DNA of 23,511 nt from a virus. The notes beneath the pieces were generated by a model. That model worked only from the letters and a program-made list of their open reading frames with translations. It did not search any database and was not told the DNA's origin. The position numbers were made by a program, and so were the translations under genes. Positions within the stretch are counted from its first letter, which is position 1. Every line of letters starts with the position of its first letter. The stretch is taken from positions 1-23,511 of the IMG/VR virus record IMGVR_UViG_3300025138_000368; one strand, given 5' to 3'. This document shows, piece after piece, positions 2,772 through 23,204 of this stretch.

Positions 2772-3224
2772 CTATACACCGCTATTAGTGTCAGTCGAAA
2801 CTGGCGCTGATAATGGTATTCCTTTAATAAAGTCCACACCCATAATCGTTCCATTAGAGTGTGTGCCAGTTTTAGTTACTGTGCATTTTAAGTATCTTTT
2901 TCCACCTACATAACCAATACCATATACGTTACTAGCATCTCCAGGTGCGTCTAGTAATAACCATCCGCCTCCTGACGCTAAAGTACCGCCTGTTACATCT
3001 GTATTAGAAGTAACAGTAGTATAAGTTGCATCATCATCACTATGTGAAAGTGTTACTGTGAACAACACAGTTGATGATAATGTATCACCACTAGCTCCAA
3101 CGGGCATTATAACCATAGCACCTGAAAAACCTTGTAGGTCACAGGCTTGTGTAGTTATATCCGCTGTTCTAGTTTGTGGAGAAAATCCTTTAAAGACTTT
3201 CAAGTTGTTTTTTATATCAAACAT
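2772..3224 (-). CDS. Putative capsid accessory/decoration protein
   Basis: A 150-residue, cysteine-poor, beta-rich protein immediately downstream of the major capsid gene. It starts MFDIKNNLKVFKGFSPQTRT, has many Ser/Thr/Gly strands (SSTVLFTVTLSHSDDDATYT, GGWLLLDAPGD), and closes with GKRYLKCTVTKTGTHSNGTI and KGIPLSAPVST. Proteins of this size and composition next to the major capsid gene in marine siphophages are commonly virion components, often capsid decoration. No catalytic motif or membrane segment is visible. A good ribosome site (AAAGGAGAT) precedes the ATG at 3224. The decoration role is inference from location and composition. Confidence 0.72.
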   Translation of the reverse strand: MFDIKNNLKVFKGFSPQTRTADITTQACDLQGFSGAMVIMPVGASGDTLSSTVLFTVTLSHSDDDATYTTVTSNTDVTGGTLASGGGWLLLDAPGDASNVYGIGYVGGKRYLKCTVTKTGTHSNGTIMGVDFIKGIPLSAPVSTDTNSGV

Positions 3225-3247
3225 TTTATATCTCCTTTAATTTATTA

Positions 3248-4459
3248 CTATTGAATAGTAATTGTTGATATTGCTTCAGGTAAGATAACCTGTCCACCAA
3301 CACGTCTTCTAGCAATGTATCTTACATTACCAGCAGATGCTTGTGTGAAAGGGTCTCTCATGATTGATAAAGCTACTCTATCAACGATCATATAACCTCT
3401 TCTAAAATCACCAAATAATACTGGTTTAGTACCATTGCCGATGTTAGCTAAGTCAGATGCTTCTACAATTGGATGTCCAAGTAAACTTGAACCTACGCCC
3501 ATTTGGTAAAGACCTGGTTGGAAGATGTATTGGTTAGCACCATCTTTTAACTTCCTGATTGCAGAAAGTGTTGATCTGTTAAACATCCAAGTAGCATTTC
3601 TCATGTACTCTGATTTAACATTGTGTGCCGCACCAATTAAGTCATCTGCACCAAGTGCATCATTAACTGCTGTAGTTATATTGTTACCTGCGTTATTTAT
3701 TAGACCTTGTGGTTTACCAACAGAGTCGCCTGAAATAAATGCGTTTCCTTCAGCTTTTGCAAATTGCTCTACAAACTCTGCATTCATTTCTGCTTCTAAA
3801 TTGAAAACTGAATCTTCAAGTTCTTGTTCAGAAATATCTACTAAAGCATATACTTCGTGAGCTGGAATTTCTTCCAAACCAACAGAATATCCTGTAGTTT
3901 CTGATCTTGAACCTTGTTCAGCTACCCATTGTGCAGAGAAAGTACCTGTTCTTTTTGGAACCTGTATGCTTCTTTGCGCAGTTGATCTAACTCTAGCTAC
4001 TGATCTTACTGGACTAAATTCAATAATACCTTTGATTATTTCTCTCACGTACTCAGGTGGAGCTAAATAACCTGCTGTATTATCATTAGACACAGTTAAA
4101 ACTTTAACTTCGTCAGGTGATAGATTTTCTTTTCCTTGTCTCATCCATTTATCAAATACTTTCTTTTGCATTGATTCAACTTGTGAACCTTTTCCAAAAT
4201 CCGGTCTTGATACAATAGTTTCTAGTCTTGCTAGTTGTTCTTGGCTTTGTTTTTGAAAATCAGCATTTGATTTAATTGCTTTTTCTACGTCTGCGAATTT
4301 ATCTAAATCAGCTTCTAGCTTATTTACTTTATCAGCAGTAATAGGATCAACTGAACCTTTTGCTTCTATTTCTTTGATTCTTTCATCGTTTGCTTTTTTG
4401 AAAGTTTCAAATGTTTTGCCAAGAGTTTCAACTGCAGATTTTACTTCGTTATTATCCAT
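3248..4459 (-). CDS. Major capsid protein (HK97 fold)
   Basis: This 403-residue protein forms the icosahedral shell. Residues 1 to about 90 are a charged coiled-coil delta domain that acts as an internal scaffold and would be removed by the upstream protease. The mature part begins around residue 95-110. Typical HK97-fold signatures follow: LTVSNDNTAGYLAPPEYVRE (residues 121-140), then IIEFSPVRSVARVRST, AQWVAEQGSRSETTGYSVG, AFISGDSVGKPQGLINNAG, and a C-terminal GDFRRGYMIVDRVALSIMRD. A ribosome site (GAGGAT) lies before the ATG. Gene order protease, capsid, accessory supports the call fully. Confidence 0.96.
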   Translation of the reverse strand: MDNNEVKSAVETLGKTFETFKKANDERIKEIEAKGSVDPITADKVNKLEADLDKFADVEKAIKSNADFQKQSQEQLARLETIVSRPDFGKGSQVESMQKKVFDKWMRQGKENLSPDEVKVLTVSNDNTAGYLAPPEYVREIIKGIIEFSPVRSVARVRSTAQRSIQVPKRTGTFSAQWVAEQGSRSETTGYSVGLEEIPAHEVYALVDISEQELEDSVFNLEAEMNAEFVEQFAKAEGNAFISGDSVGKPQGLINNAGNNITTAVNDALGADDLIGAAHNVKSEYMRNATWMFNRSTLSAIRKLKDGANQYIFQPGLYQMGVGSSLLGHPIVEASDLANIGNGTKPVLFGDFRRGYMIVDRVALSIMRDPFTQASAGNVRYIARRRVGGQVILPEAISTITIQ

Positions 4460-11926: not shown

Positions 11927-12217
11927 ATGAAAAAACATTACAGACCTTTGCCCAGTTATCTGACTATTAAGCCATCTAAAATTGAGGGTTTAGGATTATA
12001 TGCAGTAAAAGATATAGAATCTAATTTTGTTATGGGTGTATCGCATTATCTTATTAATAAAAGATATATTAGAACGCCATTAGGAGGATTTATAAATCAT
12101 TTAGATGAATCTAACTGCAAGAAGATATTAATTAAGAACGCATTTTTTTTATGCTCTAGAAGAAAAATACTATCAGGAGAGGAATTAACTCTTACTTATA
12201 CCTTTTATAATGTTTAG
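11927..12217 (+). CDS. SET-domain protein (putative lysine methyltransferase)
   Basis: A minimal 96-residue SET domain. Seen in order: GLGLYAVKDI (residues 21-30), the usual 'G.Glfa..dI' opening; GFINHLDESNC (54-64), the 'fiNH...pNc' cofactor and active-site knot; and GEELTLTYTF (84-93), the 'GEElt.dY' closing motif. The family transfers methyl groups from S-adenosylmethionine to lysines, in bacteria mostly on ribosomal or regulatory proteins. The start is set at the ATG at 11927, which has AGAGG in front; an in-frame GTG at 11912 overlaps that site. It ends the rightward operon and overlaps the end of the opposing PP-loop gene by four bases. The target is unknown. Confidence 0.82.
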   Translation: MKKHYRPLPSYLTIKPSKIEGLGLYAVKDIESNFVMGVSHYLINKRYIRTPLGGFINHLDESNCKKILIKNAFFLCSRRKILSGEELTLTYTFYNV

Positions 12218-12882
12218 TTTTCTAAAAATTTTCTAGGAATCGTATCATCAATTTTTAAACAAATATCCCAGCATTTTTCTATATTTCCTACATCCTTTTC
12301 TCTTAAAGTATAAAAGGGTGCATTTCCCTCACTTTTTCCAAAGTCTGTTGAGTATATGTATGGAATTTCTAAGTTGTAGAATTTAAAGTATTCCCAAATA
12401 TCATCTTCTTTCCAATTGTATAGGGGATGACAACTTAATCCGTGTTTATTAAAATAAATAGGAGCTTTAACAGAATTTTCATCGTTTCTTCTTCCTGTTA
12501 TTACTCCATCAAAATTGTTTTCTTTCATAAATTTATGAATTGTTTTTTGATGTCTTTGTGCAAATGACCAACTTCTCAATTTTGAATCATTAGAAAATAT
12601 AATTTTTTTATTTTTTTTTAACCATTCCCACGAAAGTGAATTTTTGAAAGTTACATTTAGATTTAATTTTTTTGATATTTTAAAAATATGTTCTCTTTGT
12701 TTTTTAAATGTAAAAGATGTTTCGCATATTTGATCGTTTATTCCTAAATTGTATGCAATATGTGTAGCTACATAACCATCCTTGCCACCTGAAAAAGCAA
12801 CTAATGGTTTTTTTGTTTTCTCTAAAAATTTGTAAATTGTATTTTTTGCTGAAAAAATTAGATTTTTAATATTATTTTTCAT
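12214..12882 (-). CDS. PP-loop ATP pyrophosphatase, PAPS reductase-like (second copy in cassette)
   Basis: A 222-residue adenine-nucleotide alpha-hydrolase-type enzyme. SGGKDG (residues 31-36) is the PP-loop, with Gly replacing the usual final Ser. VITGRRNDE (127-135) and HPLYNWKEDDIWEYF (152-166) are hallmark segments of the phosphoadenylylsulfate reductase family. The C-terminal ECGLH redox motif of true PAPS reductases is absent, so it probably adenylates another substrate or transfers sulfur. The ATG at 12882 is preferred over that at 12912, since it gives a normal N-terminus and an 11-base overlap with the ParB-like gene. Lys, Asn and Phe are markedly more frequent than in the neighbours, hinting at separate acquisition. 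Confidence 0.85.
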   Translation of the reverse strand: MKNNIKNLIFSAKNTIYKFLEKTKKPLVAFSGGKDGYVATHIAYNLGINDQICETSFTFKKQREHIFKISKKLNLNVTFKNSLSWEWLKKNKKIIFSNDSKLRSWSFAQRHQKTIHKFMKENNFDGVITGRRNDENSVKAPIYFNKHGLSCHPLYNWKEDDIWEYFKFYNLEIPYIYSTDFGKSEGNAPFYTLREKDVGNIEKCWDICLKIDDTIPRKFLEN

Positions 12883-13390
12883 CAGTAGGAACCCACGACT
12901 TTCCAAAACCATCTATTTGTTTTGTGCCTCTAATAGTCATTCCTGAATTATCTAATAATCTTTCTAATTCTTCTTCTTCCATACTTAGTCTTTCCATAAT
13001 TTCTTTATTTGAAAGATTATCTTCTTTCATTTTTCTAACTATAGAAGCCATTTCTAATACTGCGTGTGTACCCCTTGCACGATTGTGTCTTATTGTTGAC
13101 ATCATTCGGTGATCTTTATCAAAATCTACAGTAACTACTGGAACCTTTCCATCTGTCATAGCACTTACTTCAGGATCGCTTGATAGTGTCCATCTATGAA
13201 AACCATCTACAATTGTTTTATCTGATAGTATTACTATAGGTTGAGTCCATCCATCCTCTATTATAGAAGTTTTTAATAATTCTAACTCAGGTGGTGCTAC
13301 GTGATTTGGATTATAATCATTAGCATTTAATTCGTTTCTATCTATCCATTCAACCTTATTTACAGGTTGCTTATCAATACCTTGTTTCAT
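12872..13390 (-). CDS. IbrB-like ParB/Srx-fold protein
   Basis: A 172-residue protein with a ParB N-terminal (ParB/sulfiredoxin) fold: NANDYNPNHVAPPELELLKT (residues 22-41), GWTQPIVI (47-54), VDGFHRWTL (61-69), then HNRARGTHAVLEMASIV (102-118), with a C-terminal helical part. The DGFHR box aligns with the nucleotide-binding box of the fold, in which members act as CTPases, nucleases or small-molecule kinases. Pairing directly after an IbrA-like gene recalls E. coli IbrA/IbrB, described as regulators of immunoglobulin-binding proteins and otherwise poorly understood. GAGG lies 7 bases before the ATG, and the start overlaps the IbrA-like gene by 17 bases. The exact biochemical role is unknown. 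Confidence 0.83.
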   Translation of the reverse strand: MKQGIDKQPVNKVEWIDRNELNANDYNPNHVAPPELELLKTSIIEDGWTQPIVILSDKTIVDGFHRWTLSSDPEVSAMTDGKVPVVTVDFDKDHRMMSTIRHNRARGTHAVLEMASIVRKMKEDNLSNKEIMERLSMEEEELERLLDNSGMTIRGTKQIDGFGKSWVPTDEK

Positions 13391-14540
13391 CTTTTAACCT
13401 CATTTCATCTATTATTTTTTTCTTCTCAGGGTCTGCGTGACTAGACATAGTTCTTAATCTTCTGCCTTTCATATCACCCCTTAAAGCTATCATACATAAA
13501 CCTTTCCAGGATAAACCAGTTGTGTCATCAGGCTTTGTATCAGGTACAGGTCTTTTAACTAGACTTAAATGATTACCTACTGCATTTTTAACATTATTTA
13601 AAATGAATTTTTGTTGCGTTGGATCATATAAAGCTACATTGTCATAAAACCAATCTTTCCACGTTTTACCTTTTGGAAGTTTTATACCTCCAAAACCATA
13701 TAATTGTGTTCTAGAATATTTTTCTGAAGTTGAAGCTCCAGGAACTCTATCACACATTTGCGCCCAAAGTTTAGGCCACCCTGTTTTATATTGCCATAAA
13801 CCCCTCATTGGTTCTTCACCAAAAGGAACACAAACTCTTTGTTCGTTTTTTCCTACACCCATCTTATCTAGAACATCATAAACTTTATTATAATCCCAAT
13901 TATAAATCTTAGGTGCTAACCAAACATCTGAAGAAGTCCAATCATAAATAGGTGATACTCCGTGAGAATATCCACTTCTTGCCGCAGTAATCCAGTTATC
14001 TTTTGTTCTATGTGATACTGCTCTAAACCTAGTTAAACTTTCTTGTGCCCTTAAACCTCTTACATCTGCAATTTTTCCGTGAGTATGATCATAAACTCTA
14101 TGCGAAACATCAGGCACTGTGTGTTCAGGATATTTAAAACCATCTACTTCTGTAACTGCAAAATCTGGAATTTGTCTAACCCATTTATCTTTACAAGCAG
14201 GGTCAAATGGATACCACCAAGGGCTACGTCTTGAACCTCCGTTTCTATGTTTAATGGGAACACATAACCATTTTAATCTTATGTCAGGATCATTTTTTAC
14301 CCTCATCATATATTCAACTGTTTCAGGCATTATGACTTCCTCATCCCAAAAATATACATCTAAAGGAAGTTTGTTTTTCTCTCTAGCTACTTTTAAACCT
14401 AAATTTAAACAGACAGTAGAGTCTTTGCCTCCACTAAATGAGATAACTACTTTATCAAAGGCATCAAATAAATATCTAAATCTATCTAATGCCGATTGAT
14501 ATACGTTAGTTTCAATTTCTTTTTTCTTTAAGACGACCAT
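13374..14540 (-). CDS. IbrA-like PP-loop enzyme (PAPS reductase superfamily, DUF3440-like)
   Basis: A 388-residue ATP-pyrophosphatase-fold protein. After the helical start NVYQSALDRFRYLFDAFDK comes the PP-loop VVISFSGGKDSTVCLNLGL (residues 31-49), then DVYFWDEEVIMPETVEY (61-77), RGLRAQESLTR (161-171) and SPIYDWTSSDVW (196-207), which match IbrA and the wider PAPS reductase family. The C-terminal half contains VCVPFGEEP, GWPKLWAQM and a basic end typical of the IbrA branch rather than assimilatory reductases. The reaction probably begins with adenylation of a substrate; the product is unknown. It overlaps the symporter gene by 29 bases and the IbrB-like gene by 17, so the three are translationally linked. 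Confidence 0.87.
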   Translation of the reverse strand: MVVLKKKEIETNVYQSALDRFRYLFDAFDKVVISFSGGKDSTVCLNLGLKVAREKNKLPLDVYFWDEEVIMPETVEYMMRVKNDPDIRLKWLCVPIKHRNGGSRRSPWWYPFDPACKDKWVRQIPDFAVTEVDGFKYPEHTVPDVSHRVYDHTHGKIADVRGLRAQESLTRFRAVSHRTKDNWITAARSGYSHGVSPIYDWTSSDVWLAPKIYNWDYNKVYDVLDKMGVGKNEQRVCVPFGEEPMRGLWQYKTGWPKLWAQMCDRVPGASTSEKYSRTQLYGFGGIKLPKGKTWKDWFYDNVALYDPTQQKFILNNVKNAVGNHLSLVKRPVPDTKPDDTTGLSWKGLCMIALRGDMKGRRLRTMSSHADPEKKKIIDEMRLKDETRY

Positions 14541-15918
14541 ATTTTGTAAATAGTATAACTATGATACCACTTGCAAGAACAGTAAATAATGATGCGAAGA
14601 CTTTTAAGTCTGTCAAACCATTAAATCCAGCTACTGCAAATAAAGGAACACCAAAACATAAAGATGTAAGTATTCCATAAAACATTCCTCTTTCAGAAAG
14701 TTTTTTGTAAATGATAGTTAAGATTGTTGGAATTAAAGTTGATGCTCTTAATGTTCCATAAAATATAAATAGATATAATATTTTTAAGTCAGGAATATTA
14801 GCAATTAATGTTCCCCCAATTGCAAGTGCAACCATTCCGTATTTTGCTGTAAGTAGTTTGTCTTTTGATTTTCTCATAATATCTGTACTTACTATAGATG
14901 ATATAGAACATAATCCTGAATCTAATGTAGAAACAAGACCTGATAGCAACATCCATACAAAGGGTATTAATATTATTTTAGGCAGTAATTCATTTACTGT
15001 AATTATATTAATTAATTGAGCATTACTTCCTGCTTCTAATCCCATACCTGCCGCCATAAAACCAATTACAGAAGTAAATATTGGAACAACACCAAAAACT
15101 AATGCAGAAAATAAAAATGCTTTCTTGACTTCGCTTCGTTTAGTCGTGAATGCTCTTTGCCAAAAAGATTGATCACCAAATGGTCCAGCAAGTAATCCGA
15201 TAGTTACAACTATTCCAAATGAATAAGCAACAGTTGGGTCAAAGACATTAGAAAAGTCACCTGATATACCTCCAAAACCTTTAGACAGCACTTCATAGCC
15301 ACCACCTTTTACATAGACTAATGGCACTACTGCAAATACTACTACAAGAATAATAATCATCTGCCATACGTCTGTCATAATTGATGCTCTAATTCCTGAA
15401 ACCAAACTATAAGATAGTGCAATCATTGTTAAAATAATAGTTACTACTGTAAAATCAATTCCAGTTAAATATGTAACTACTGCACCTCCAGCTAATAATT
15501 GAACAGCGAATTGACAAATAGATAATGCTGATAAACTAATTATATATAATACTTGTACTCTTCTAGAATATCTTACATTCATATATTCAGCTAAGGTGTA
15601 TCCGTTTTTAAATTTCTTTCTTAAATAATGCGCAAAATAAGCAAAGATACAAAGACATAAAATATTTGGTACTGTGAACCAAAATACTCCAGGAAGTCCT
15701 TGTTGATATGCTTTCTGTGATGCTATGAATAGAGCTGGAGCCCATATCCAAGTTGCGGCAGTAGAAAAACCTGATTTCATAAATCCAACTTTTCTGTCTG
15801 CTACTAAAAAATTAGTATGAGTTTTTGATTTCTTTAAATAGAAATATGAAAGACCATACATAAAAAGACCATAGCTAATCAATAAGACATAGCCAGTCAT
15901 AGGTGTTAGTGAGTTCAT
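14512..15918 (-). CDS. Sodium:solute symporter (SSS family)
   Basis: A 468-residue integral membrane protein with about 12-13 hydrophobic helices, the normal SSS length and architecture. Family signatures include NGYTLAEYMNVRYSRR (residues 105-120), SGIRASIMTDVWQMIII (174-190), GDQSFWQRAF (248-257) and the hydroxyl-rich TM8-type segment SGLVSTLDSGLCSISSIVST (326-345), which in relatives helps bind sodium. SSS members import urea, proline, pantothenate, sugars or other solutes with Na+; the GDQ(S)FWQRA form is common in urea/amino-acid-like branches, but substrate cannot be deduced. It is intact and embedded in an operon of ParB-like and PP-loop genes: TAA of the upstream gene is followed directly by this ATG, with GGAGAT in front. 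Confidence 0.92.
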   Translation of the reverse strand: MNSLTPMTGYVLLISYGLFMYGLSYFYLKKSKTHTNFLVADRKVGFMKSGFSTAATWIWAPALFIASQKAYQQGLPGVFWFTVPNILCLCIFAYFAHYLRKKFKNGYTLAEYMNVRYSRRVQVLYIISLSALSICQFAVQLLAGGAVVTYLTGIDFTVVTIILTMIALSYSLVSGIRASIMTDVWQMIIILVVVFAVVPLVYVKGGGYEVLSKGFGGISGDFSNVFDPTVAYSFGIVVTIGLLAGPFGDQSFWQRAFTTKRSEVKKAFLFSALVFGVVPIFTSVIGFMAAGMGLEAGSNAQLINIITVNELLPKIILIPFVWMLLSGLVSTLDSGLCSISSIVSTDIMRKSKDKLLTAKYGMVALAIGGTLIANIPDLKILYLFIFYGTLRASTLIPTILTIIYKKLSERGMFYGILTSLCFGVPLFAVAGFNGLTDLKVFASLFTVLASGIIVILFTKYGRLKEKRN

Positions 15919-16560
15919 TTATCTCCTGACTAAAAACATAATCGCTTCTGAAAATGTTTTTAAATTGTTATTAGTTTTTATTTCATTAAGTATCTTGTAA
16001 AGTTCTTTTCTATCATCTTCTGTAAGTAATAGAGAAAACTCAACAAACTTATTATTTTCATCTGACGGATTAGTAAATGTATTTTGTGTTTTGACTGATT
16101 CATCACCACCATTTTCCTCATTGTCTTTTGAAATTTGTTTATCTGTTTCCATTTCTTGAAAACGTAATTTTATATAATCAAACTCACCCTCATCAAATCC
16201 GAGTAAGCCCTCATCAATTTTATTACCATCTAATAATTCTGATATTTCTTTAACTGCTTTATCCCAATCCCAAGAAGATTCCTCGTGACTTCTATTATCC
16301 ATAAACCTATAAGCTCTGACTTTCTCATCAGATAAACCTACTGCTCTGAGTATTGGTACTTCTCTAAATCCTAATTTTTCTGCCGCCCTGTGTCTTGTGT
16401 GTCCTGCAACTATGACATTTTTTTCATCAACTACTATAGGTTGTTGCCACCCAAATTCTTTTAAAGATAATGCAACTTTATCAACTGCTTTATCAGAAAT
16501 TTTTCGTGGATTATCAGGGTAAGGTTTGACTTGCGTAATTTCTACTGTTTCTATTTTCAT
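15919..16560 (-). CDS. ParB-like N-terminal domain protein
   Basis: A 213-residue protein. Residues 1-90 are a canonical ParB N-terminal domain: PYPDNPRKISDKAVDKVALS (13-32), GWQQPIVVDEKNVIVAGHTR (37-56), HRAAEKLGFREVPI (57-70), LSDEKVRAYRFMDNRSHE (76-93). LLGFDEGEFDYI (119-130) is the motif that in many phage proteins joins this domain to a DNA methyltransferase. Here the methyltransferase is missing; instead there is an acidic linker and a short C-terminal helical segment (LLLTEDDRKELYKILNEIKT). It is the first gene of the cassette with the symporter and IbrA/IbrB-like genes. No clear ribosome site precedes the ATG. Confidence 0.87.
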   Translation of the reverse strand: MKIETVEITQVKPYPDNPRKISDKAVDKVALSLKEFGWQQPIVVDEKNVIVAGHTRHRAAEKLGFREVPILRAVGLSDEKVRAYRFMDNRSHEESSWDWDKAVKEISELLDGNKIDEGLLGFDEGEFDYIKLRFQEMETDKQISKDNEENGGDESVKTQNTFTNPSDENNKFVEFSLLLTEDDRKELYKILNEIKTNNNLKTFSEAIMFLVRR

Positions 16561-20282: not shown

Positions 20283-20315
20283 TTGACTGGCATATCAGAT
20301 TTGGTACGATTAGAT
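20283..20315 (+). promoter_or_regulatory. Rightward promoter, copy 2 of the shared phage promoter
   Basis: TTGACT (20283-20288), CAGATTTGGTA (20296-20306) and TTAGAT (20310-20315) match copy 1 at 10998-11030 in sequence and spacing, while the bases between them differ. TGG-TACGAT at 20302-20310 reads as an extended -10, 16 bases after the -35. The leader AACAAAAAAACGGAG and the first gene follow at once. Confidence 0.75.
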
Positions 20316-21361: not shown

Positions 21362-21706
21362 ATGGGATGGGATAACGTAAAAATAGATGACTATAGAGAT
21401 AAACCAACAATTGATGAAAATGATGTTGGTAAACAAGAGTATGAAGTAGAAGTAGATGTTCACTTCACAGTTAAATACAAGGTACTTGCTAAAGATAAAA
21501 CTGATCTAATTGATAAGACTATATATGTTGGTGGTGCTGATTTAACTTTTAAAGATGATAAATTAGATAATATTTATGATCTTAAAGTTAAAAACTGGGG
21601 AACTGACAATGAAAAAGAAAGTGTTACTTATAGAGCAGTAATAGCTAAAAAAATAGATAAAGATGAACCTGATAGTAAAGATAACACAGAATATGAATTA
21701 GAATAA
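21362..21706 (+). CDS. Acidic uncharacterised protein
   Basis: A 114-residue protein beginning MGWDNVKIDDYRDKPTIDEN after a strong AGGAGG site. The middle reads as a beta sheet (QEYEVEVDVHFTVKYKVLAK, TIYVGGADLTFKDDKLDNIY, ESVTYRAVIAKKI), with an acidic C-terminal tail. It carries a high excess of Asp and Glu. Acidic early phage proteins sometimes mimic DNA or bind host enzymes, but no sequence motif supports that here. It is the last gene before the structured non-coding segment. Confidence 0.7.
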   Translation: MGWDNVKIDDYRDKPTIDENDVGKQEYEVEVDVHFTVKYKVLAKDKTDLIDKTIYVGGADLTFKDDKLDNIYDLKVKNWGTDNEKESVTYRAVIAKKIDKDEPDSKDNTEYELE

Positions 21707-21708
21707 AC

Positions 21709-21738
21709 TTGACAAAAGGGGTATTATGGATTTATTAA
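21709..21738 (+). promoter_or_regulatory. Possible promoter in front of the structured RNA
   Basis: TTGACA (21709-21714), a perfect -35, is followed after 18 bases by TATTAA (21733-21738), a moderate -10. Transcription would begin near 21745, exactly where the structured segment starts. A GGGG before the ATG at 21726 could instead be a ribosome site for a spurious-looking frame. Confidence 0.42.
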
Positions 21739-21745
21739 TTGTATT

Positions 21746-21862
21746 GAGAGAGCCAAATTCCTCTCGCTTTTTTGGGTGGGATTTGAGTATCAGTAATGAC
21801 TCAGAAGTTTTACACATCAGCCTTTCTTGGCTCTGTCTCCAAACTTTGTTAAATCCCACTCA
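21746..21862 (+). ncRNA. Putative structured RNA with pseudoknot potential
   Basis: This segment lies in a 228-base stretch (21707-21934) without a convincing gene. Helix B pairs 21773-21786 with 21849-21862, 14 pairs including two G-U, with a perfect nine-pair core GTGGGATTT/AAATCCCAC (21776-21784 and 21851-21859). Helix A pairs AGAGCCAA (21749-21756) with TTGGCTCT (21827-21834), eight perfect pairs, interleaved with helix B as in an H-type pseudoknot. Local hairpins GAGT/ACTC (21785-21788, 21799-21802) and AGCC/GGCT (21819-21822, 21829-21832) offer alternatives. A T-run follows at 21867-21874. No known RNA family is recognised. Base composition differs from the coding neighbours. Confidence 0.5.
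21748..21773 (+). terminator. Intrinsic terminator-like hairpin
   Basis: GAGAG (21748-21752) can pair with CTCTC (21761-21765) around an eight-base loop, and GC plus six T follow (21766-21773). The stem is short, so it may be partial. The same GAGAGCC bases can alternatively pair with GGCTC downstream at 21829-21833, which would dissolve this hairpin; an attenuator arrangement is therefore possible. Confidence 0.45.
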
Positions 21863-21934
21863 CTATTATTTTTTATTGACTTTTATTATAAATTCAAGTA
21901 ATGTTCCACAAGCAAAACAGAAAGAGGAGGCACT

Positions 21935-22081
21935 ATGATAACAATGAGAATAAATGGTAAGTTGATAACAGCTAAGTCTGTTCATCAATGTTTTATTAAA
22001 TACTATAAAAAGTTTTTTATTATGGATAAGAAACTTTGTATATTTGATTTAGAAAAAAAGGAAAGGAAACAATATGTCTAA
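21935..22081 (+). CDS. 48-residue basic protein
   Basis: Encodes MITMRINGKLITAKSVHQCF, then IKYYKKFFIMDKKLCIFDLE and KKERKQYV. GAGGAGG stands six bases before the ATG, making the start certain. The protein is rich in Lys, Tyr and Phe, with two cysteines; no family is recognised. It reopens the rightward operon after the non-coding segment and overlaps the ribbon-helix-helix gene by eight bases. Confidence 0.65.
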   Translation: MITMRINGKLITAKSVHQCFIKYYKKFFIMDKKLCIFDLEKKERKQYV

Positions 22082-22214
22082 AGCATACAAGATGCTACAG
22101 ATACCTGTAAGTAAAGAAGAATACGAAAAGATAGAAGAACTAGCAAAGAAAGAAAATAGAAGTATTCCAGCACAAATCAAAGTGTTCTTGAAAACTCTAT
22201 TTGGTAAAAAATGA
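22074..22214 (+). CDS. Ribbon-helix-helix protein (Arc/CopG-like)
   Basis: A 46-residue protein, MSKAYKMLQIPVSKEEYEKI, then EELAKKENRSIPAQIKVFLK, with the pattern of a minimal ribbon-helix-helix: a strand with alternating residues (YKMLQIPV), helix 1 (SKEEYEKIEELAKKEN), the turn RS, and helix 2 (IPAQIKVFLKTLFG). These dimers bind operator DNA through the strand. A GGA-rich ribosome site (AAAGGAAAGGAAA) precedes the ATG, and the stop overlaps the next start (ATGA). It may control one of the phage promoters in this window; no operator was proven. Confidence 0.75.
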   Translation: MSKAYKMLQIPVSKEEYEKIEELAKKENRSIPAQIKVFLKTLFGKK

Positions 22215-22785: not shown

Positions 22786-22996
22786 CTTAATAAAAAAACT
22801 TAGATGGGCTATTAGAGAGTCTAGAAAAATCGGACACCCTTATATCTCTAGTGGTAAGCTAGAAGAATATATCCAGGAATATGAAGTTGCGACTGGCAAT
22901 ATATCTTCTGATATGGTAAATAAGGATAACAAAAAAAATGGAGATAAATATGATAAAAAAAATAGCGTTGTTGATTTCGTTCTTGATATTAACTAA
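22778..22996 (+). CDS. 72-residue uncharacterised protein
   Basis: Starts MNNLIKKLRWAIRESRKIGH, then PYISSGKLEEYIQEYEVATG. The ATG lies eight bases before the end of the XRE regulator gene; no strong ribosome site, but coupling is likely. The last 40 residues (NKDNKKNGDKYDKKNSVVDF) are low-complexity and overlap the lipoprotein gene by 47 bases in another frame, so the C-terminal part is weakly constrained. A small helical domain in the first 40 residues is probable; function unknown. Confidence 0.58.
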   Translation: MNNLIKKLRWAIRESRKIGHPYISSGKLEEYIQEYEVATGNISSDMVNKDNKKNGDKYDKKNSVVDFVLDIN

Positions 22997-23204
22997 CTGT
23001 GCATACAAACCTAAGATAAACCCTGAGGCTAGTAGAGATCCTCATACAGGTAAAAATTTAGCTGGTAAATACTACTATCACTTAGCTACTTGTGAGGATA
23101 TGTGGGAAAAAAATCCACCTTTTTCTTTGATAAAAAGACAAGGTGCTTTTACTAGAAAATGTATGCAAGATTTTGGTTATAAATTATTGTTTTATAAAGG
23201 TTAA
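22950..23204 (+). CDS. Small lipoprotein
   Basis: The 84-residue product begins MIKKIALLISFLILTNCAYK: a basic start, hydrophobic core and lipobox-like LTNC, so Cys17 would be lipidated after cleavage by signal peptidase II (Asn at -1 is less usual). The mature part contains SRDPHTGKNLAGKYYYHLAT and two further cysteines (ATCEDMW and TRKCMQD) that could form a disulfide in the periplasm. The ATG at 22950 with GGAGAT is preferred over the ATG at 22938, which overlaps that site. A spanin or superinfection-exclusion role is possible. Confidence 0.77.
   Translation: MIKKIALLISFLILTNCAYKPKINPEASRDPHTGKNLAGKYYYHLATCEDMWEKNPPFSLIKRQGAFTRKCMQDFGYKLLFYKG

Follow-up and report, generated by a model that had tools for sequence, protein, structure and literature searches.

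A conserved folded RNA in an operon of uncultured phages, with a likeness to the C4 and c4-2 RNAs

The stretch of DNA analyzed here (the window, IMGVR_UViG_3300025138_000368 positions 1 to 23,511, which is the whole 23.5-kb virus record) contains a conserved folded RNA whose nested fold is under selection. We judge it somewhat likelier than even that this is a noncoding RNA distantly related to the C4 and c4-2 RNAs which represses the next gene through antisense pairing. The RNA element is about 116 bases long and is common to at least 20 distinct related phage sequences, with exactly one copy per record in the 16 virus records searched. In the window, the minus strand carries structural and replication genes and the plus strand, from about position 20283 on, carries a packed operon of small genes. 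The RNA element is flanked by genes for proteins of 114 aa (21362-21706) and 48 aa (21935-22081, plus strand), the latter with no family assignment. The gene that follows (22074-22214, plus strand) encodes a 46-aa Arc/CopG-like ribbon-helix-helix protein, which matched the Arc-like phrog_3431 at 1.2e-5 and RHH_1 at 20.0 bits, slightly below the cut-off. The product of 21362-21706 belongs to a fast-diverging family (GKKxFxVE...VKYKVxAKD) with no PHROG match. Many relatives encode a member of this family upstream of the RNA, at a distance of one to three genes, and some of these relatives have differing downstream genes.

Relatives were gathered mostly via neighboring genes, independently of the RNA, and some via motif patterns. 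In all, 20 distinct members were read, 14 of which are covered by a MAFFT alignment; the members are related to one another, so that member counts overstate independence. Of the loci retrieved via the Arc-like neighbor, 15 were searched with a second covariance model and 14 proved to carry the RNA; the E-values from our home-made covariance models are rough. BLASTN searches of named phages with the RNA-bearing regions retrieved nothing relevant, the phage HTVC026P does not have the RNA, and a pattern scan of bacterial genomes gave a single match, by chance. The identity of the gene downstream differs among the relatives carrying the RNA: in group A it encodes a small protein or an Arc/CopG-like regulator, and in group B a pyrimidine dimer glycosylase-like protein (L100) or an unassigned protein (L005).

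From its 5' end, the RNA folds into a hairpin, P1, and then a three-way junction made up of an outer stem, P2, two hairpins, P3 and P4, and the joining strand GUUA. Across the alignment of 14 distinct members, compensatory changes are seen in 18 of 25 pairs. The proportion of paired cells is 93.7%, versus 70.5% in shuffles and 35-42% with the partner strand slid, and the covariation score is 0.676, versus 0.225 in shuffles and at most 0.13 with the strand slid, placing the covariation far above chance level. The fold energy by itself is mildly unusual (z -2.6). The stems contain many G.U pairs and almost no A.C mismatches, which indicates a functional RNA on the plus strand.

P1 (21746-21765, plus strand) consists of 5 bp, GAGAG/CTCTC, around a loop at 21751-21760, with the pattern NGNNNANUC in relatives. 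Each of its pairs is canonical in 13 or 14 of the 14 members, four of the five show two or three Watson-Crick types, and a hand alignment agrees with the MAFFT result for this hairpin. The outer stem P2 (21774-21783 paired with 21852-21861, plus strand) has 99.3% of its cells paired and both sides changed at 7 of 10 pairs. P3 (21784-21803, plus strand; TGAG-TA bulge-TCA-GTAA-TGA-CTCA) is built from 4 bp, a 2-nt bulge, 3 bp, and a GNRA tetraloop, with 96.9% of cells paired and both sides changed at 5 of 7 pairs; its loop is GUAA, or GCAA in L005 and L156, and its middle pair changes from C-G to U-A in L151-L155. P4 (21804-21847, plus strand) has a basal stem (21804-21809 with 21842-21847) in which 88.6% of cells are paired and three of five pairs covary, a variable apex, and a conserved CUCC on its 3' side (21837-21840). 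The joining strand J4/2 (GTTA, 21848-21851, plus strand) is identical in all relatives, and GUUA, the CUCC of P4, the GNRA loop, and the position of the bulge are all invariant or almost so. Kissing of the P1 loop with the P4 loop was also considered and rejected, the complementarity of 10 seen in L097 and L117 not being general.

The nearest relative, L001, at 97% identity, has five substitutions inside the element, four of which make up two complete compensatory pairs (21809-21842, T-A to A-T; 21820-21831, G-C to A-T). Both sit in the hairpin nested within the long helix, outside the pseudoknot that the original prediction had drawn by interleaving an eight-pair helix (21749-21756 with 21827-21834) with a helix of up to 14 pairs (21773-21786 with 21849-21862). 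The eight-pair helix is perfect in the window and has two G.U pairs in L001, and it is lost in distant relatives; the pseudoknot is therefore rejected. The core of the 14-pair helix survives as P2, with nearly all pairs canonical in 14 relatives, and its full length is P2 extended. Similarly, a hairpin described as terminator-like, with six T, is real as P1, but the T run is not conserved, and we dropped P1 and the T run as a terminator for that reason. With neither the eight-pair helix nor the T run conserved, the data fit a single nested fold rather than the switchable attenuator that had been suggested. The other suggestion, a small phage RNA, is supported by compensatory changes throughout, a predicted promoter immediately upstream, and one copy per phage record. 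A lack of compensatory changes in homologues had been named as counter-evidence, and such changes proved abundant.

The -35/-10 pair reported upstream of the element is present as a predicted sigma-70-like promoter (21709-21738, plus strand), with TTGACA at 21709-21714, a spacer of 18 nt, TATTAA at 21733-21738, and a predicted start at about 21744-21746. A TTGACA-like box is found upstream of the RNA in nearly all relatives, and in 8 of 14 (window included) a comparable promoter gives a predicted start at most 3 nt from P1. Past the RNA lies a second, putative promoter-like pair (21876-21904, plus strand; TTGACT ... TAATGT), and a TTGACA- or TTTACT-like box is located 14-31 nt past P2 in the 14 relatives listed. 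As a separate observation, L097 and L117 have terminator-like hairpins (GGGTGGG...CCCACCCTTTT and AAGTGG...CCACTTTAT, respectively) just 5' of the RNA promoter, as if insulating the RNA from upstream transcription.

No Rfam family was found at the RNA at its gathering score, either in the window or in permissive scans. Among 4227 Rfam families, the best match for L005 was c4-2 (RF02944), at 29.0 bits against a gathering score of 41; the window scores 14.1 bits with this model, and no record reaches the gathering score. When the c4-2 model alone was run on 20 whole records, all four matches with E <= 1 fell on the RNA and on the right strand (5.7e-6, 0.020, 0.027, and 0.2), and the same model gave no match in 14 control genomes. 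Comparison of the cmscan alignments with the covariation-supported fold shows the c4-2 consensus fold in L005, L100, and the window: the outer stem, the bulged GNRA hairpin, the second hairpin, and the 4-nt joining strand. The hairpin of 4 bp, 2-nt bulge, 3 bp, and GNRA loop is in the same register as in c4-2, a family of the C4 clan (CL00128). In contrast, c4-2 is 79 nt long and has an internal loop in its outer stem that is missing here, and the new RNA adds the 5' hairpin P1, a longer P4, and the CUCC. The C4 RNA of phages P1 and P7 (RF01695) shares the three-way junction and the location just upstream of its target on the same strand, but the first hairpin of P1 C4 has a UUCG loop and no bulge. 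The C4 model gave no match at E <= 1 in the 20 records, although it scores P1 C4 at 68.8 bits, and P1 C4 is not recognized by the family's own covariance model. With sub-threshold c4-2 matches and shared anatomy on one side and these two blanks on the other, we regard the RNA as distantly related to c4-2 and C4 but as a member of neither; the kinship is supported by its anatomy and by a profile similarity that is weak. The original statement that it belongs to no known class thus holds at Rfam thresholds, but the sub-threshold matches and the anatomy put it beside C4 and c4-2.

The C4 antisense RNA represses antirepressor synthesis. Phage P1 uses it to block the translation of a neighboring gene. 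In the P1 record, the target sites a2 and b2 come no more than 40 nt after C4, with b2 at the ribosome-binding site of icd; no icd or ant gene was recognized downstream of the new RNA. Within P1 C4, the junction strand on the 3' side serves as a' and the second hairpin's loop as b', in agreement with published work, in which b' partly occludes the ribosome-binding site, a' confers specificity, and RNase P makes the 5' end (PMC5320573). The GUUA and CUCC of the new RNA occupy the places of a' and b'. The sar RNA of phage P22 lies in a locus with an Arc-type repressor (arc-ant), and its likeness to the system described here is one of layout only. As in the proposed system, sar is an antisense RNA against a ribosome-binding site (PMC12197685).

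From the sequence comparisons, we infer antisense action and repression of the next gene. The RNA would be transcribed from the promoter at 21709-21738 and fold into the 5' hairpin and three-way junction, after which the unpaired or weakly paired CUCC of P4 and the GUUA of the junction would pair with the ribosome-binding site of the next gene on the same strand, so repressing this gene, along with the regulator genes that are co-translated with it, at the level of translation. Moderate evidence points to a putative target at 21926-21937 (plus strand), containing a GGAG Shine-Dalgarno sequence (21926-21929) and an ATG (21935-21937). The next start codon is 62-92 nt past the RNA in all 14 relatives listed, an agreement of position only, with the same strand and operon arrangement as in C4. 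In the window and L001, GGAGGCA can pair with UGUCUCC (21834-21840) in a 7-bp duplex, and wherever the next gene of a member has a GGAG, CUCC can pair with it. In 17 of the 19 members with GGAG, the base after CUCC also pairs with the base before GGAG, as A-U or U-A; the window and L001 are without this flanking pair. Other ribosome-binding sites seldom have a U before GGAG (20/119), and a Fisher test of the flank gives p 0.016, a value that ignores the relatedness of the members. RNAduplex rated the natural target above shuffled sequences in the majority of 14 members. Many other GGAG ribosome-binding sites in the same phages pair with CUCC equally well, and an upstream a-like block is weak (combined p 0.011). 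TTGACA boxes were rejected as a-type targets (by analogy with TTGACAG in P1), as the match is not kept where the box is TTTACT. Taken together, these comparisons support antisense pairing that represses the next gene better than any other mechanism, with moderate confidence.

Two lineages have a further element that folds strongly, immediately 5' of the RNA (L029, about 3195-3270; L119, about 505-575), in the form AGGGGCGA...TCGCCCTT around AACCTCCCTxGGTTxGTCTTT...TTGACAAGGTT. Here UUGACAAGG could pair over nine positions with CCUUGUUAG of the L029 RNA, which recalls the a1-b1 target upstream of P1 C4.

The RNA might instead be another kind of compact RNA, an aptamer for a metabolite or a protein, or an element that acts on RNA polymerase to cause antitermination, sharing merely its three-way junction with c4-2; we regard this as possible, though well short of an even prospect. 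The GUUA and the GNRA loop would then form the binding site and the CUCC would be structural, in keeping with nearly all positions being structured or invariant and with the lack of specificity in the CUCC pairing. Put-type antitermination RNAs sit at the transcript 5' end just after the promoter, and the RNA is placed likewise, at the 5' end of the predicted transcript and directly past the promoter. However, such a reading does not account well for c4-2 matches falling on exactly the RNA loci or for the A/U covariation between the RNA and the ribosome-binding site of the next gene. The second promoter-like pair also means that the downstream genes need not depend on the RNA in cis, and a downstream gene that varies would be unusual for a riboswitch.

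Further readings turn on an ORF (21726-21938, plus strand) that covers part of the promoter, the RNA, and the target, ends in the ATGA of the next gene, and thereby spans the entire element in what had been called a coding-poor gap. The frame passes through the RNA in 11 group-A relatives and reaches or overlaps the next start codon in 10 of the 11, with a chance of 0.03-0.16 per relative for such an open gap. The omega of the ORF is 0.55-1.26, versus mostly 0-0.5 in the neighboring genes (some small neighbors also have 0.65-0.80). The reading frame across P3 varies between relatives while the RNA is conserved, and L100, L101, and L005, in which no frame is free of stops, keep the RNA. On these three grounds, the peptide is not the conserved thing; the frame is conserved as an open one, with little sign of amino-acid selection. 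Conservation of this ORF with synonymous bias had been named as evidence against an RNA; the frame is indeed kept open, but the bias is absent and the RNA reading stands. One idea for why the frame stays open is the avoidance of polarity in read-through transcripts. The element could also, though in our view this is unlikely, represent a new phage RNA family that differs from C4 in function and is kept folded inside the ORF, in which ribosomes translate read-through transcripts and transcripts from the RNA's own promoter, starting past the start codon, yield the folded RNA; with selection keeping the frame and not the peptide, translation itself would then decide RNA formation.

Less likely still is a cis-acting leader, where the folded RNA within the mRNA would control access to the next ribosome-binding site, hiding or exposing it, and ribosomes translating the ORF would reset the switch. 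In favor of such a leader are the frame that stays open as far as the next start, as in 10 of the 11 group-A relatives, and the occurrence of one RNA with one gene on the same strand, but the three relatives with no such ORF keep the RNA, and the predicted transcription start in the window is past the ATG of the ORF. That the element is no more than the gene of a small protein, with a coding sequence that folds by chance, is very improbable, since the complete ORF, its plausible ribosome-binding sites, and its overlaps with neighbors are outweighed by the omega values, the differing P3 frame, the three relatives with stops in all frames, and the covariation of the RNA pairs.

Phages P1 and P7, proteobacterial genomes, and prophages are the main known sources of C4-type RNAs. 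If our preferred reading of an antisense RNA related to C4 is true, a sister family in uncultured phages would show that the C4-type RNA switch predates the P1 immunity system and extends beyond it. The switch would possibly also be used outside lysogeny; no tyrosine integrase was found in the 16 records searched, which are fragments and so give no proof of a lytic lifestyle. A frame kept open without a conserved peptide raises the question of how RNA genes are accommodated in phage operons that are translated throughout.

Elsewhere in the window, 22938-23204 encodes a small conserved protein resembling a lipoprotein (LTNCAYKPxINPEASRD...), with identities of about 30-100% among these phages and no PHROG match. 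In the phage's minus-strand operon, 12214-16560 groups together genes for a sodium:solute symporter (SSF; 14512-15918), two ParB-N proteins, and two proteins with a PAPS-reductase domain, of which one also has DUF3440. The reductase/ParB pairs are reminiscent of IbrA/IbrB, and a transporter gene is unusual cargo for a phage.
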